From an uncultured Sphingomonadaceae bacterium (GTDB lineage Bacteria > Pseudomonadota > Alphaproteobacteria > Sphingomonadales > Sphingomonadaceae), in contig CANLQI010000002.1 of NCBI GenBank assembly GCA_947493325.1, positions 496,001 through 560,000 on the forward strand: a stretch of 64,000 nucleotides of DNA, in the 5' to 3' direction. Shown here in pieces: positions 44,932 through 59,234 of this stretch. Position 1 is the stretch's first letter; each line of letters starts with the position of its first letter. The position numbers and the translations under genes are program-made. Below the pieces are notes generated by a model, which was given only the letters and a program-made list of their open reading frames with translations, was not told the DNA's origin and did no database searches.

Positions 44932-45354
44932 TCAATCGAATGTATCGGGTGAAGGCGCGGTTTCACCTTGAAACCATGCCACGGCATCGGGACGGAACAG
45001 CATATATATGGCATAGCCCGCCAGCGCCGTAGAAACCAATGATATTATCATCACCGTAGTGGGCAGCTGAAAAAGTCCGAATGGCAGGAAAATCAATCCG
45101 ATGACGAAAAATACCGTGAGTATCCATTTGCACACATTGCTGGCCTTACGCGCTGTAAAATACCACAGAAGCAGCGATATAGACACGCTGATCACTGTCA
45201 CGACAATAAGGAACCCATCGCCAAACATGGAGGCATTCGGATCTGCGGCAAGCTGTGCTTTCGTGTTGGACCAATTCAGGAATGTGTTGACCAGGCCAAG
45301 GATGATTGACCCCATATAGAATTGCTCGAATTTAAGGATGGATTGTGGTCGCAT
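44932..45354 (-). CDS. hypothetical membrane protein, four helices
   Basis: 140 residues from ATG 45354 (GGGAG ribosome site). Four predicted membrane helices: FYMGSIILGLVNTFLNW, GFLIVVTVISVSISLLLWYF, WILTVFFVIGLIFLPFGLF and VMIISLVSTALAGYAIYMLF. No family is recognised with confidence. It immediately precedes the RNase T2 gene. Confidence 0.75.
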   Translation of the reverse strand: MRPQSILKFEQFYMGSIILGLVNTFLNWSNTKAQLAADPNASMFGDGFLIVVTVISVSISLLLWYFTARKASNVCKWILTVFFVIGLIFLPFGLFQLPTTVMIISLVSTALAGYAIYMLFRPDAVAWFQGETAPSPDTFD

Positions 45355-45454
45355 GATGTTCTCCCTCTCGCTATATTGCCGCATAGCCCTCTTTTTCAGC
45401 GCAGGTCAATTGCTTTTGGATAACACTTAAGCCGGCAAATCGTTACTGTACAAT

Positions 45455-46312
45455 CTAAACCTGCGCGAAATCGAGACCGATATCGGCGGCGGGCGCGCTC
45501 TGCGTCAGGCGGCCGACCGAAATGAAATCGACGCCGGTTTCGGCAATGTCGCGGATCGTATCCAGATTAACCCCGCCCGATGCTTCGGTTGGCACGCGGC
45601 CTCCGATCAGCGTCACCGCGCCGCGCAGCACGGACGGTTCCATATTGTCAAGGAGCAGGTGCGTTGCGCCCGCTTCCAGCGCGGGTTCGATCTGGTCGAC
45701 CCGGTCCACCTCGACGATGATGCGTTCAATCCCTGCGGCCACGGCGCGGCGCACCGCCTCGCCAATATCACCCGCCACCGCGACATGGTTATCCTTGATC
45801 ATCGCCGCGTCCCACAATCCCATGCGGTGGTTTTGCGCGCCGCCCATGCGGGTCGCGTATTTTTCCAGCACGCGCAGGCCGGGAATGGTCTTGCGCGTGT
45901 CGAGCAAAGTCGCGCCCGTGCCGGCAATCCGGTCCACATAGGCGCGCGCCATGGTGGCGATGCCGGTCAGGTGCTGCACGGTATTGAGCGCGCTGCGCTC
46001 CGCCGTCAGCAGCGCCTGTCCATTGCCCTTCAGTCGCATCAAGTCTGCGCCCGCCGCGACTTTTTCGCCTTCTCGCGCCAGTATCTCAATCTCCACCCCC
46101 GGATCGCGCGCGCGGAAAAATGCCTCTGCAATCGGCAGCCCCGCAATCACCGCCTCATGCCGGCTGTCCATCACCCCGGTAAATACCGCATCCGCTGGGA
46201 TCACGGCTTCAGAGGTGATATCGCCGACAAAATCAGGCGCGGGGCCCAGGTCTTCGGCAAAGGTGGATTGCACAAAGGCGTCAAGGTCGAAACGGTCGAG
46301 TGCAAAAGTCAT
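45455..46312 (-). CDS. nadC: nicotinate-nucleotide pyrophosphorylase (quinolinate PRTase)
   Basis: Turns quinolinate and PRPP into nicotinate mononucleotide in de novo NAD synthesis. 285 residues: EDLGPAPDFVGDITSEAVIP, the catalytic RSALNTVQHLTGIAT, LDTRKTIPGLRVLEKYA, NHRMGLWDAAMIKDNHV and the C-terminal DFISVGRLTQSAPA. Last gene of the nadA-mrr-DUF2254-nadC string; its ATGA start overlaps the DUF2254 stop. Confidence 0.96.
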   Translation of the reverse strand: MTFALDRFDLDAFVQSTFAEDLGPAPDFVGDITSEAVIPADAVFTGVMDSRHEAVIAGLPIAEAFFRARDPGVEIEILAREGEKVAAGADLMRLKGNGQALLTAERSALNTVQHLTGIATMARAYVDRIAGTGATLLDTRKTIPGLRVLEKYATRMGGAQNHRMGLWDAAMIKDNHVAVAGDIGEAVRRAVAAGIERIIVEVDRVDQIEPALEAGATHLLLDNMEPSVLRGAVTLIGGRVPTEASGGVNLDTIRDIAETGVDFISVGRLTQSAPAADIGLDFAQV

Positions 46313-47640
46313 ATGCCCATATCTTTCATGGAGTGGGTGAAATTATCCAGCCTCTCCTTTAGTTCATCCATGCTTGGCCCGGCAAGACTATGTGCTGCCT
46401 GCTCCACCATTTTATGGCCTTCTTCATACAGGATGCGCCGGCGCTTGTCGGACGTGCACCCGGTCGCGGCGGCATAAAGACAATCGATGAAGTTGATCGA
46501 GGCCATTGGACTGCCAGCGGCTGATGCACGAATGGCGCCGAATCCGCGCTGCACGAAATGCGCAAAATCATCATCCAATGGCAACAGGTATTTGCGTTCG
46601 TAATCATCTTGTTCCGGGCCGCGGTCCAGATTGCGGCGGCCCAGTTCTGCGGTGGCCGCGCCCAGCCAATGCATCGCGGTAATTGCCGTAAATGGATCAT
46701 TGATACCGGGCGACAGCGCGCGCAGCGCAATCTCGGCCAGTTCGTCCATAAGGAATTCCAGATCCTGTGTCGGCGTGCGCATCCCGCCCAGATCGAAACA
46801 ATCCAGTATTTCCTCGCTGAGATCATCATTCAATTTCCCGCCAATCAGATCCGCCACCGGCATATCGGGATGCACGAAATCACCAGTGCGGACTTTCAGC
46901 GCAATGCGCGCGCCGTTTTCCTGCGCCACTTCGGACAGGGAATGAAAACCGATGATTTTAATATAACCTGCCTTGCGGGCGATCACGGGTTCGCCATCTT
47001 CGGCTGCCTCCGGCTCGTCCGGCTCAGCGTCTTCGGGAAAACGGGTTTTGACGTCATCCAGCAATCGTTCACCAATCCCTTCCAGCACCGTGTTGATACG
47101 GATGGAAGCGGGGATATGGTGCAGAAAATATACCAGAATGGCGACGGCGAATATAGCCATGCTGACCGCTGTCAGCAGCGATAATTGCGGCACAAATCCT
47201 TCGAGCACTGTGGCAGCGGCATCTGTCCCGGTGGCGGGGTCTTCATCCTCCGCGCGCACCACACGCAGCACCATCATGGCATAGACAAAAGTGGCGATAA
47301 ATACGCCCAGCGAGAGCTGGTTGCCCTTGTCCTGCATAAAATTGGTGAGCAGGCGCGGGCCGTAATTGCCCGATGCATAGGCTACAGCGGCGATCGTGAT
47401 GGAAAAAACGGTCGAGGCAACACCGATCATCGACCCCGCAATAATGGTGAGCACATTGCTGGCCCCATCAGGCCGGGCCGGATGCATCCACTCAAACTGG
47501 TTGAGCCATTCCGCCGCACCATTGCGATCAAGATAGACTGTGACAAAGGACAGCGTGAACGCCAGCAGCGAAAATATGGCGGGATAAAACCAGTAACTGG
47601 AATTGACGTCGAGCCAGAAGGAACGGAGACGGGCGATCAT
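46309..47640 (-). CDS. DUF2254 membrane protein
   Basis: 443 residues with four N-terminal membrane helices (including IFSLLAFTLSFVTVYL and LLTAVSMAIFAVAILVYFL) and a cytoplasmic region with LGVFIATFVYAMMVLR, PALSPGINDPFTA-like (RALSPGINDPFTAITAMHWL) and GFGAIRASAAGSP. These fit DUF2254, whose function is unknown. 4-bp ATGA overlaps join it to the Mrr-type gene upstream and nadC downstream. Confidence 0.88.
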   Translation of the reverse strand: MIARLRSFWLDVNSSYWFYPAIFSLLAFTLSFVTVYLDRNGAAEWLNQFEWMHPARPDGASNVLTIIAGSMIGVASTVFSITIAAVAYASGNYGPRLLTNFMQDKGNQLSLGVFIATFVYAMMVLRVVRAEDEDPATGTDAAATVLEGFVPQLSLLTAVSMAIFAVAILVYFLHHIPASIRINTVLEGIGERLLDDVKTRFPEDAEPDEPEAAEDGEPVIARKAGYIKIIGFHSLSEVAQENGARIALKVRTGDFVHPDMPVADLIGGKLNDDLSEEILDCFDLGGMRTPTQDLEFLMDELAEIALRALSPGINDPFTAITAMHWLGAATAELGRRNLDRGPEQDDYERKYLLPLDDDFAHFVQRGFGAIRASAAGSPMASINFIDCLYAAATGCTSDKRRRILYEEGHKMVEQAAHSLAGPSMDELKERLDNFTHSMKDMGI

Positions 47641-48536
47641 TCAAAAAAGTCTTCGTCTATCTTTTTAATATGCAGGATATCTTCATCACGACAGCCAATA
47701 TTATACCGGATCATGAGTTTGGCTAGCTGTAGACCATCAATTAGAACAATTCTTGTACCTAATGCAGAGGCTGTATCTTTTGCTGATGGGCTAAATTTTG
47801 AGCTTGTTACAAAAATGCCCTTTTGTGCCTTTTTGATATTTAAGGCACCAAAAAAATCTCTGATTGCCCCCGCACCTATGTTATTTCCTTCAGCATATCT
47901 TTTGGCCTGAATATATATTTGATCAACTCCTAGTGGGTCTTGATCAATGACACCATCGACACCGCCATCACCAGTTTGCCCTATGGCTTGGCCAGCATCT
48001 TCCGATGTACCTCCATAGCCCATGGCAAGCAAAAGCTGAACAATCAGGTTTTCAAAAAACTCTGGAGTACTATTCCGCACACGGTCTATTAAATCTAAAG
48101 CAAAGCTGGCATTTATCTTCTCATAAGCCTCTCGTAAGGTTTCATCAGGAGTGTCAGATAACGATGAATGTTGTGAGGCCTCATTTTTCTTTTCGTTTGT
48201 ACGGTTTTGAAAATCTATAAAATCGTCGAATTGTTCCAAAACGCCGCGGTCTATGGGGCCAACATGCTTTGCTAACACCTCTTTTCCAGCAGGAGTGATT
48301 CTGTATAAACCTCTGCCAGTTATTTCCACTAAACCAGCTTGCTTAAGGTAGCTTTTGGCCCAGTTTGTTCTATTTGCGAAGCGAGTCTGTTTTTTACTGG
48401 GCAGCAACTCTGCTCTTTCTTCGGCAGTCAGGTTAAACTGGTCAGCAAGAAATTCAATTGTATCTGAAATGCTCACTTCACCATTTTGTGCATATTCTAG
48501 AACCGGACGCATTAAGGTCTGATAATCAGGTATCAT
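47637..48536 (-). CDS. Mrr-family restriction endonuclease
   Basis: 299 residues with the Mrr layout: N-terminal winged-helix domain (about 1-95; RGLYRITPAGKEVLAKHVG), linker, and a C-terminal PD-(D/E)xK nuclease domain with MGYGGTSEDAG, GDGGVDGVID (Asp194) and QAKRY (Gln210, Lys212). Mrr-type enzymes cut methylated DNA; this is expected, not shown. The gene is much AT-richer than its surroundings (bases 48061-48120 and 48181-48240 hold 24 and 17 G/C of 60) and sits between nadA and DUF2254 with ATGA overlaps on both sides. Confidence 0.87.
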   Translation of the reverse strand: MIPDYQTLMRPVLEYAQNGEVSISDTIEFLADQFNLTAEERAELLPSKKQTRFANRTNWAKSYLKQAGLVEITGRGLYRITPAGKEVLAKHVGPIDRGVLEQFDDFIDFQNRTNEKKNEASQHSSLSDTPDETLREAYEKINASFALDLIDRVRNSTPEFFENLIVQLLLAMGYGGTSEDAGQAIGQTGDGGVDGVIDQDPLGVDQIYIQAKRYAEGNNIGAGAIRDFFGALNIKKAQKGIFVTSSKFSPSAKDTASALGTRIVLIDGLQLAKLMIRYNIGCRDEDILHIKKIDEDFFE

Positions 48537-49537
48537 CCCTTATGCGCCAAGTCCGTCGGTCCCAAATCACCTTTGCCTACAGTGCCGCTCGACATTTCGA
48601 GCATGCGGTCGAGGGATTTTTTGGCCTGCAGGCGCAGTTCCTCGTCCAGTTCGATGCGCGGTTCCAGATCGCGCAGGGCGATATACAGCTTCTCCATCGT
48701 ATTGAGCGCCATATAGGGGCAGATATTGCAGTTGCAGTTGCCGTCCGCACCGGGTGCGCCGATAAAGGTTTTTTCCGGCACCGCCTTTTCCATCTGGTGG
48801 ATGATATGCGGTTCAGTGGCGATAATGACGGTGTCGTGTTCGCTTTCCTTGGCGAATTTCAGGATCGAGCTGGTCGATCCGACATGGTCCGCATGGTCCA
48901 GGATATGCGCGGGGCATTCAGGGTGCGCCGCGACGGGTGCATCGGGATATTCCGCTTTCAGCTTGATGAGTTCCGTCTCGCTGAACTTTTCGTGCACAAT
49001 GCACACACCGGGCCAGAGCAGCATGTCACGGCCGGTTTTGCGCGCCATATAGCCGCCAAGATGTTTGTCGGGCGCAAAGATGATCTTCTGATCCTTGGGC
49101 AGCTGATCCAGGATCATTTCCGCCGATGAGGATGTGACGATAATATCGCTGAGTGCCTTCACGGCCGCCGAGCAGTTGATATAGGTCAGCGCAATGTGGT
49201 CGGGATGCTCCTCCCGGAATGCCTTGAACTTGTCAGGCGGGCAGGAATCCTCAAGGCTACAGCCGGCATCCAGATCGGGCAGCACCACGATTTTTTCCGG
49301 AGACAGGATTTTCGCGGTTTCGGCCATGAATTTCACGCCGCAAAAAGCGATGACATCGGCATCGGTTTCGGCGGCCTTGCGTGATAGCTCCAGCGAGTCC
49401 CCGACAAAATCGGCAATATCCTGAATTTCCGGCTTCTGGTAATAATGCGCGAGGATGATGGCGTTGCGGTCCTTACGCAGCCGGTCGATTTCAGCGCGCA
49501 GGTCAAGCCCGCTCAGATTTTCGGTTTGGATGGTCAT
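48533..49537 (-). CDS. nadA: quinolinate synthase A
   Basis: [4Fe-4S] enzyme condensing iminoaspartate with dihydroxyacetone phosphate. 334 residues with AIILAHYYQKPEIQDIADFV, the cluster cysteines in CGVKFMAETAKIL, VHEKFSETE region Cys (WPGVCIVHEKF) and CNCNICPYMALNT. First gene of the nad operon; L-aspartate oxidase (nadB) is absent from the cluster. Its stop overlaps the Mrr-type start as ATGA. Confidence 0.96.
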   Translation of the reverse strand: MTIQTENLSGLDLRAEIDRLRKDRNAIILAHYYQKPEIQDIADFVGDSLELSRKAAETDADVIAFCGVKFMAETAKILSPEKIVVLPDLDAGCSLEDSCPPDKFKAFREEHPDHIALTYINCSAAVKALSDIIVTSSSAEMILDQLPKDQKIIFAPDKHLGGYMARKTGRDMLLWPGVCIVHEKFSETELIKLKAEYPDAPVAAHPECPAHILDHADHVGSTSSILKFAKESEHDTVIIATEPHIIHQMEKAVPEKTFIGAPGADGNCNCNICPYMALNTMEKLYIALRDLEPRIELDEELRLQAKKSLDRMLEMSSGTVGKGDLGPTDLAHKG

Positions 49538-49622: not shown

Positions 49623-50687
49623 TCAATCATCAATACGAAATTTGACGATTTTGCCGGATACGCGCCGCGCCGCATCCATGCCGCCGACCAGATAATAGTG
49701 TCCCCGATAATGTAGTAACCCGCGATAATCCATGCCGGGTGCAGGCAATGTGCCCAGTGTTTCCCAGTTATCTGTGTCAAAATCATAGGCGAAAATGGCG
49801 TCTGAAGCTTCGGCCGGAACGCCGTCATAGCCGATGCCGTCATAATTATACGGATTATCGGCGCCGCCTGCAAAAATGACGCGCGCGGCTTGGTCGTCGC
49901 CCATTGATGCCATGCGGTAGAGGGGTTTACCAGGATGTGGCGGTAGCTTGCGCCATGTGATGTTTGTGGGGTCTGCCGGGTCGATATCGCCGCGCCAGCT
50001 TTCATTCACGGCACCGAACTGCCGCTTGCCATCTTTTACGCCCACCACCGCCACACCATCGGTCACGAGTATGGAATCCGCCGCTATCCCGCCCGCATGA
50101 CCGAATACGGGCGCGCCGGGATAATCGGTGGCCCGGCTCCAGGTGCCTGTCTCAGTGTCATATAACTGCACATGGCTGACATTCCCGTCATCATGCCAGC
50201 CGGAAATCAGGTAGATGTAGCGGTCCTGATAGACGGCGGCGACCATATCATCGACTGGTACCGGCATATCGGCGGCGCGGATATAGGTTTCGTTCCCGGG
50301 GTCAAATGCGAATACTTCCGGCGTCGATTTTTCGTCGCCATTTTCGGCAACACTATATCCGCCGAAAATATAGATTTTACCTGCCACAGTCACCGCCGCG
50401 CTGGCCAGGCGGCCTTCGGCCACTGGCACGGACGCAATTTCGCGGCAGCTGCTCTGTGCGATGGTGCAGGCAAAGGCGGCATGGCTGGTGTCATTCCAGG
50501 CCTTACCGCTTTTCAGGCCGTTAAAGCTGTAGAGGGTCGGCCCGTCCCCGGAGATACCCAGCGCCACAGCGTTATTGCTGTGCGCTTCGGGCAGCGCCAT
50601 GGATATGATGGCCTCGTCCGGCGCGCTTTGCGGCGTGCAGGCAGCCATTGCCAGCGGCATGAACAGGAACAAGAATCTATTCTGCAA
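49623..50687 (-). CDS. kelch-repeat lipoprotein
   Basis: 354 residues, lipoprotein signal FLFMPLAMAACTPQS (lipobox MAAC). Kelch-type beta-propeller repeats are visible: GKIYIFGGYSVAE, DRYIYLISGWHDDG, DSILVTDGVAVVG and GHYYLVGGMDAARR. Probably a periplasmic or outer-membrane binding propeller; sialate mutarotases share this fold but nothing shows that activity. The start overlaps the DUF4230 gene end by 11 bp. Confidence 0.83.
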   Translation of the reverse strand: MQNRFLFLFMPLAMAACTPQSAPDEAIISMALPEAHSNNAVALGISGDGPTLYSFNGLKSGKAWNDTSHAAFACTIAQSSCREIASVPVAEGRLASAAVTVAGKIYIFGGYSVAENGDEKSTPEVFAFDPGNETYIRAADMPVPVDDMVAAVYQDRYIYLISGWHDDGNVSHVQLYDTETGTWSRATDYPGAPVFGHAGGIAADSILVTDGVAVVGVKDGKRQFGAVNESWRGDIDPADPTNITWRKLPPHPGKPLYRMASMGDDQAARVIFAGGADNPYNYDGIGYDGVPAEASDAIFAYDFDTDNWETLGTLPAPGMDYRGLLHYRGHYYLVGGMDAARRVSGKIVKFRIDD

Positions 50688-59148: not shown

Positions 59149-59163
59149 CTTCAGGATAGTTGG

Positions 59164-59234
59164 AGCGGGTAGCGGGAATCGAACCCGCATAACTAGCTTG
59201 GAAGGCTAGGGCTTTACCACTAAGCTATACCCGC
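59164..59234 (-). tRNA. tRNA-Gly (TCC)
   Basis: 71-nt cloverleaf on the minus strand: acceptor GCGGGTA/TACCCGC, D-arm GCTT..AAGC, anticodon stem CTAGC/GCTAG with loop CTTCCAA giving anticodon TCC, T-arm GCGGG TTCGATT CCCGC, discriminator T. CCA is not encoded. Confidence 0.96.

Follow-up and report, generated by a model that had tools for sequence, protein, structure and literature searches.

The window analysed here, the whole stretch of 64,000 nucleotides from the genome of an uncultured Sphingomonadaceae bacterium (G000), carries on its minus strand a co-directional NAD-synthesis operon in which a Mrr-type nuclease gene and a membrane-protein gene lie between nadA and nadC. The same region was compared with that of a sister species of the same genus (G001) and a third species of that genus (G002), and the features that matter for what follows are these:

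48533-49537, minus strand: nadA (quinolinate synthase), the upstream gene, whose last 4 bp are shared with the nuclease start
47637-48536, minus strand: intact gene for a Mrr-type nuclease of 299 amino acids (Pfam, PADLOC)
46309-47640, minus strand: gene for a DUF2254 membrane protein, downstream, whose first 4 bp are shared with the end of the nuclease gene
45455-46312, minus strand: nadC (quinolinate phosphoribosyltransferase), the end of the operon, with a 4-bp overlap with DUF2254
48532-48536, minus strand: ATGAT at the nadA stop and nuclease start
47636-47640, minus strand: ATGAT at the nuclease stop and DUF2254 start
47622-48556, minus strand: maximum-likelihood tract of near identity to the sister species G001, with 8 differences, flanked by sequence that differs at 7-8% of sites

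An earlier, sequence-only reading had set a nuclease reading frame between nadA and DUF2254, with ATGA overlaps at its junctions and ATGAT at both edges, and it had located all of these correctly. Further out, a kelch-repeat gene upstream of nadA (49623-50687) is absent from that place in G001 and kept in G002, and a 150-aa ORF downstream of nadC (44932-45384) is absent from the corresponding place in G001. A transposon-like insert is ruled out, as none of the 12 listed inverted pairs connects both edges of the nuclease gene (the nearest, 14 nt at 79%, pairs its 3′ end with a spot 74 bp inside nadA) and Pfam detects no transposase or integrase families among six window proteins examined near it. 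A tRNA landing site is ruled out too, the window's sole tRNA lying at 59161-59234.

Pfam resolves the nuclease into a winged-helix-type, DNA-binding Mrr_N domain (PF14338; residues 5-89, E 6.5e-30, above cut-off) and a PD-(D/E)XK-type Mrr_cat nuclease domain (PF04471; residues 154-275, E 2.5e-33), and its best PADLOC model is mREase_IV, type IV methyl-directed (2e-81). The residues D194 ... Q210-A-K212 are invariant in a five-row nuclease alignment, so that the Q-x-K of the Mrr_cat motif, given as (D/E)..(D/E/Q)xK in PMC3874153, is intact; no relatives were found in the PDB with profile A1 at E <= 0.01. The protein is presumably, to judge from its domains and motif, a modification-dependent (type IV) restriction enzyme, whose N-terminal domain would bind DNA and which would cut at a base modification foreign to the cell. 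In that source, EcoK Mrr is held to cut foreign-modified DNA in vivo, and Mrr-like nuclease domains alone are said not to set the modification preference (PMC3874153).

The gene has a G+C content of 41.0%, 16 points under its 2-kb flanks, with 300-bp windows at 40-43% inside the nuclease as against about 55-57% in nadA and DUF2254, and a GC3 of 0.33 versus 0.63-0.74 in its three neighbours, so that the contrast drawn earlier between an AT-rich nuclease and nadA was correct. In 80 nuclease relatives elsewhere the difference between gene and flank G+C averages -0.026 (sd 0.061), with only three of the 80 reaching -0.14, and judged against these the step at the window's nuclease exceeds chance. 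The corresponding mean for 19 relatives on viral contigs is -0.117, and 11 of them reach -0.14.

The sister species G001 has the same gene order and junctions identical to those of the window, and the divergence between the two genomes changes abruptly at the nuclease: DNA identity is 92.8% in nadA, 92.0% in DUF2254 and 93.3% in nadC, versus 99.1% (892/900) in the nuclease, and the corresponding dS values are 0.335, 0.348 and 0.248, versus 0.036. This last value is the lowest among 182 reciprocal-best gene pairs drawn from about 597 and 595 kb of G000 and G001 (next 0.110, median 1.06), and the nuclease is likewise the most identical 900-bp window of 1806 (229,765 aligned bases, mean 82.5%). 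Given this contrast in dS and identity, the two nuclease copies are far younger in ancestry than their flanks. A change-point fit lets the tract of near identity reach 20 bp into nadA and 15 bp beyond the nuclease stop; lengthening it costs 0.5 lnL for 139 bp on the nadA side, and 1.2 lnL for 30 bp and 2.3 lnL for 42 bp on the DUF2254 side. Since the tract ends 15-20 bp outside the gene, the recent exchange between the two species involved the gene almost alone, and the flanks are in turn younger than the bulk of the genome, so that repeated recombination at the locus is probable. Horizontal acquisition of the nuclease gene, proposed in the sequence-only reading, is thus supported by its composition together with the dS contrast with nadA and DUF2254, and neither a donor nor strain-level polymorphism was seen among three genomes of the genus, one per species. 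Outside the window, a block of five neighbouring genes with low dS (0.11-0.30) on G000 contig C2, at about 609-616 kb, perhaps records another exchange between G000 and G001.

Sites without the nuclease were sought among 44 DUF2254 loci, two of which carry it (those of the window's genome and of G001) and 42 of which do not, nadA being counted as a direct neighbour when at most 130 bp upstream. It lies directly upstream of DUF2254 in 23 of the 42 nuclease-free loci, with nadC next in several. Relatives lacking the nuclease had been expected to join nadA and DUF2254 directly through an ATGA overlap, and that expectation held for the empty site itself but in a minority for the form of the junction: 20 of the 23 direct junctions are gapped, by 4-130 bp, and three show a 4-bp overlap, namely ATGA in G070 and G149 (of another genus, with 65-66% DUF2254 identity) and TTGA in G584, the start codons having been taken from the alignment, so that a few may be off. 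A single overlapping ATGAT accordingly occurs at two of the 23, plus one TTGAT. In G002, third species of the window's genus, nadC follows nadA after 10 bp, with neither nuclease nor DUF2254 between them. A tandem DUF2254 pair follows nadA in G028, G034 and G011 (L082, L085, L093), with a four-base overlap between the two copies in G028 and G011.

Nucleases of this kind are rare in the family and recur behind nadA. Profile A1 at E <= 1e-85 finds matches in 21 of 397 family genomes, only five of which, G000, G001, G203, G379 and G249, belong to the close nuclease group, as delimited across these genomes by scores of at least 518 bits against a five-row profile (next 390). In G203 and G379, which belong to two other genera, the nucleases are 54-58% identical to the window's and begin, respectively, 2 and 4 bases after the nadA stop, with a spacer and no overlap, and each fills the space that separates nadA from a convergent EamA gene and that holds DUF2254 in five congeners of G203 and four of G379, the nine compared having been chosen for carrying DUF2254. 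The flanks of G203 follow its own genus (nadA is 93-96% identical to that of five congeners and 87% to that of G379), while for G379 only NemA gives a clear signal of this kind (85-86% with three of four congeners). DUF2254 was not found anywhere in G002, G203 or G379 and is patchy in the genera of the latter two (5/8 genomes in g59 and 40/114 in g63, 39 of the 40 over the cut-off), so that the nuclease may have 'replaced' it or the two may have been gained and lost independently. A Sphingomonadaceae metagenome-assembled genome, L202, carries a nuclease copy with an early in-frame stop (L202:5001-5903) downstream of nadA at a distance of about 0.7 kb, an interval that includes a Gp49-like gene and a further small ORF; the G249 copy was not found beside nadA. 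In the wider genome collection, nadA is within reach in two of 80 loci, both from Sphingomonadales (L202 and L209, the latter equivalent to G203), as seen in flanks of up to 5 kb that were often ended by contig ends.

That other genes might sit at the same place had also been foreseen, and relatives do carry PIN/Phd, GIY-YIG, Gp49-like and other genes at the nuclease site or behind nadA. Across 24 loci behind nadA the occupants include Mrr, PIN/Phd, GIY-YIG, Gp49-like, DUF2254 or none, few being proven defence genes. Between nadA and nadC, Pfam identifies an opposite-strand PIN/Phd pair resembling a toxin-antitoxin system in G023 (L078) and a GIY-YIG gene together with a beta-lactamase-family gene in G025 (L076), and some relatives have nothing there. 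With nuclease, DUF2254, other genes or none found in it, the place behind nadA constitutes a small variable slot.

The history of the nuclease was followed in two trees, a first of 111 rows, which left out 16 of the 19 viral loci, L209 as a duplicate of G203 and a broken copy in G196, and a second of 84 rows, from which 27 more long or remote rows had been removed. The copies of G203, G379 and L202 group together with support of 100 (bootstrap) and 97 (SH-aLRT), and free trees do not join the G000/G001 nuclease to the other nadA-linked ones; constraining all five nadA-linked rows to one clade costs 0.40 lnL and is not rejected (AU p 0.489). One arrival behind nadA followed by spread, and several separate arrivals, are both compatible with these phylogenies. 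A source among sampled phages and plasmids was tried and rejected, the best viral relatives being 55% identical (19 loci) and all of 66 plasmid records and 3 phage records lying under 60%. Relatives often stand beside type I restriction-modification genes, whereas the window's nuclease is solitary: the immediate neighbours in 80 relative loci include 11 HsdM-like, 9 HsdR-like and 2 HsdS-like genes, one representative of each having been confirmed by Pfam. The PF02384 methylase occurs in three of five genomes (G000, G001 and G203; not G002 or G379) and PF01555 in all five, and no nuclease-linked pattern emerges from these five genomes. The type I restriction-modification loci of G000 and G001 (L372, L373) differ from one another, the HsdM-like protein of G000 being nearest the neighbour of L185 (36%) and the HsdR-like protein of G001 nearest the neighbours of L208 and L217 (55-59%).

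How the gene first came to lie between two coupled neighbours is a separate question from how it spread, and the sequence-only reading had answered it with microhomology at ATGAT. On that model, which concerns the first arrival and can hold alongside recombination-based spread, the ATGAT at the nuclease start and the ATGA at its end would have paired with the one ATGAT present where nadA and DUF2254 ancestrally overlapped, so duplicating ATGAT and preserving the coupling. Excising the nuclease with one ATGAT does yield the junction of G070 and G149, of which G584 has a TTGA version, and the nuclease family and nadA-linked DUF2254 genes share starting bases before any insertion: 47 of 80 nuclease relatives in the genome collection start with ATGAT, in quite different surroundings (residues 2-3 are Ile-Pro in 57 of the 80), and ATGATCG is a frequent start of the DUF2254 genes that follow nadA in relatives. 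The repeat is compatible with microhomology and yet weak evidence for it, because it has a coding origin at each edge; the two ATGA overlaps dictate four of its five bases, and the fifth, T, is the start of an Ile codon, both nuclease and DUF2254 beginning with Met-Ile. The motif occurs 228 times on both strands of the 64 kb. A crude set of 474 ORFs from 597 kb of G000 contains 292 co-directional neighbour pairs, of which 160 overlap or are separated by less than 60 bp and 47 could accommodate an ATGA overlap. Against the model stand also the gaps at most empty sites, the nadA-adjacent copies of G203 and G379 with their spacers and a third species of the genus that has no DUF2254, and overlaps can arise later, with junctions varying even inside one genus (g96). 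Entry through ATGAT, as originally suggested, therefore lacks clear support, and we regard the microhomology model as rather unlikely.

Three further accounts place the origin of the pattern elsewhere. The high identity between G000 and G001 might reflect no transfer at all but an ordinary resident gene whose DNA sequence is exceptionally constrained, and the differences are indeed uneven, five of the eight falling inside one 100-bp stretch; but synonymous sites are conserved too (7 synonymous codon differences in 299 codons, versus 59 in 334 for nadA), and no comparable constraint is seen in relatives at 54-62% protein identity, which makes this account hardly credible. An ancestral nadA-nuclease-DUF2254 operon inherited vertically, with loss of the nuclease in most lineages and of DUF2254 in some, would agree with the unrejected single clade of nadA-linked nucleases, with G203 and G379 keeping the nuclease without DUF2254 while the window's pair keeps both, and with the patchiness of DUF2254 itself. 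For G000 and G001 its plain form is refuted by a nuclease dS tenfold lower than that of the neighbours, and the scarcity of the nuclease in the family would call for very many losses, so that we consider descent of this kind improbable. Precise self-movement from gene edge to gene edge, site-directed or homing-like and using the gene's own nuclease or its start and stop sequences, would in turn explain why the identity tract matches the gene to within 15-20 bp on each side and why the nuclease sits directly behind nadA in several genera. The two gene edges are not joined by any inverted repeat, two target-side bases are enough to account for the ATGAT repeat, nadA is near in only two of the 80 relatives, both of them Sphingomonadales, and short recombination tracts fit equally well; we give such movement little credence. 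A broader version, in which the solitary nuclease is a gene-sized unit that moves within and between species and lands repeatedly behind nadA, replacing or joining DUF2254 through start/stop microhomology or homing-like action and without mobile-element machinery, seems to us similarly doubtful.

The reading we prefer, with a probability of roughly 0.6, is that of a variable slot behind nadA into which the nuclease was acquired horizontally and through which it was exchanged across species, probably by homologous recombination. The identical junctions of two species suggest a single insertion in the window's genus, with exchange between species later, and the transferred segment would have comprised almost nothing beyond the gene. 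Most likely the gene travelled by homologous recombination with the common nad genes as anchors, on donor flanks that either were very short from the start or have since been overwritten right up to the insert; such overwriting could have proceeded by recombination with nuclease-free strains, while selection retained the nuclease. Once in place, the gene probably relies on stop/start coupling for its translation from the nadA message, and its product would cut incoming DNA bearing foreign base modification. That recombination normally brings more flank than the 20 and 15 bp of the best fit counts against this explanation, although about 139 bp on the nadA side and about 30 bp on the DUF2254 side are tolerated at the small lnL costs given above. 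As the nadA-nadC block is itself young for G000 and G001, several events may be layered, and since the free tree keeps the window's nuclease apart from the other nadA-linked ones, separate arrivals may have occurred.

The enzyme type, horizontal transfer into operons and the presence of defence genes between core genes are already known. A narrow literature search returned no account of a Mrr gene behind nadA (a paper matching both names deals with a restriction-minus E. coli strain), the part of PMC2395238 seen holds nothing bearing on insertion into operons, and gene-limited recent exchange within a coupled housekeeping operon, together with recurrence behind nadA, appears undescribed as far as that search goes. 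If the preferred reading is true, a defence gene can cross species as a near gene-sized segment within a housekeeping operon, without an island or mobile element, and methods looking for islands would miss such passengers, which the contrast in dS between a gene and its immediate flanks offers a simple way of finding. It would also make the minimum size of a recombination tract, or the speed at which flanks are overwritten, testable in strain collections.

Several known systems offer points of comparison. In bacterial populations, gene-specific sweeps or introgression leave a single gene with a much more recent coalescence than its flanks, and the nuclease shows the same signature, although here it is seen between two species with one genome each. 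With Mrr and other type IV enzymes (EcoK Mrr, the mREase_IV model of PADLOC) the window's nuclease shares domain order, length and the Q-x-K motif, and it differs from those systems in standing alone in an operon for NAD synthesis. Similar in arrangement are the core defense hotspots of Pseudomonas aeruginosa (PMC10250203), where defence genes likewise lie between conserved core genes and have apparently spread by recombination in the flanks; unlike those hotspots, the slot behind nadA holds one or a few genes, lies inside a co-directional operon and has few alternative occupants that are defence-like.
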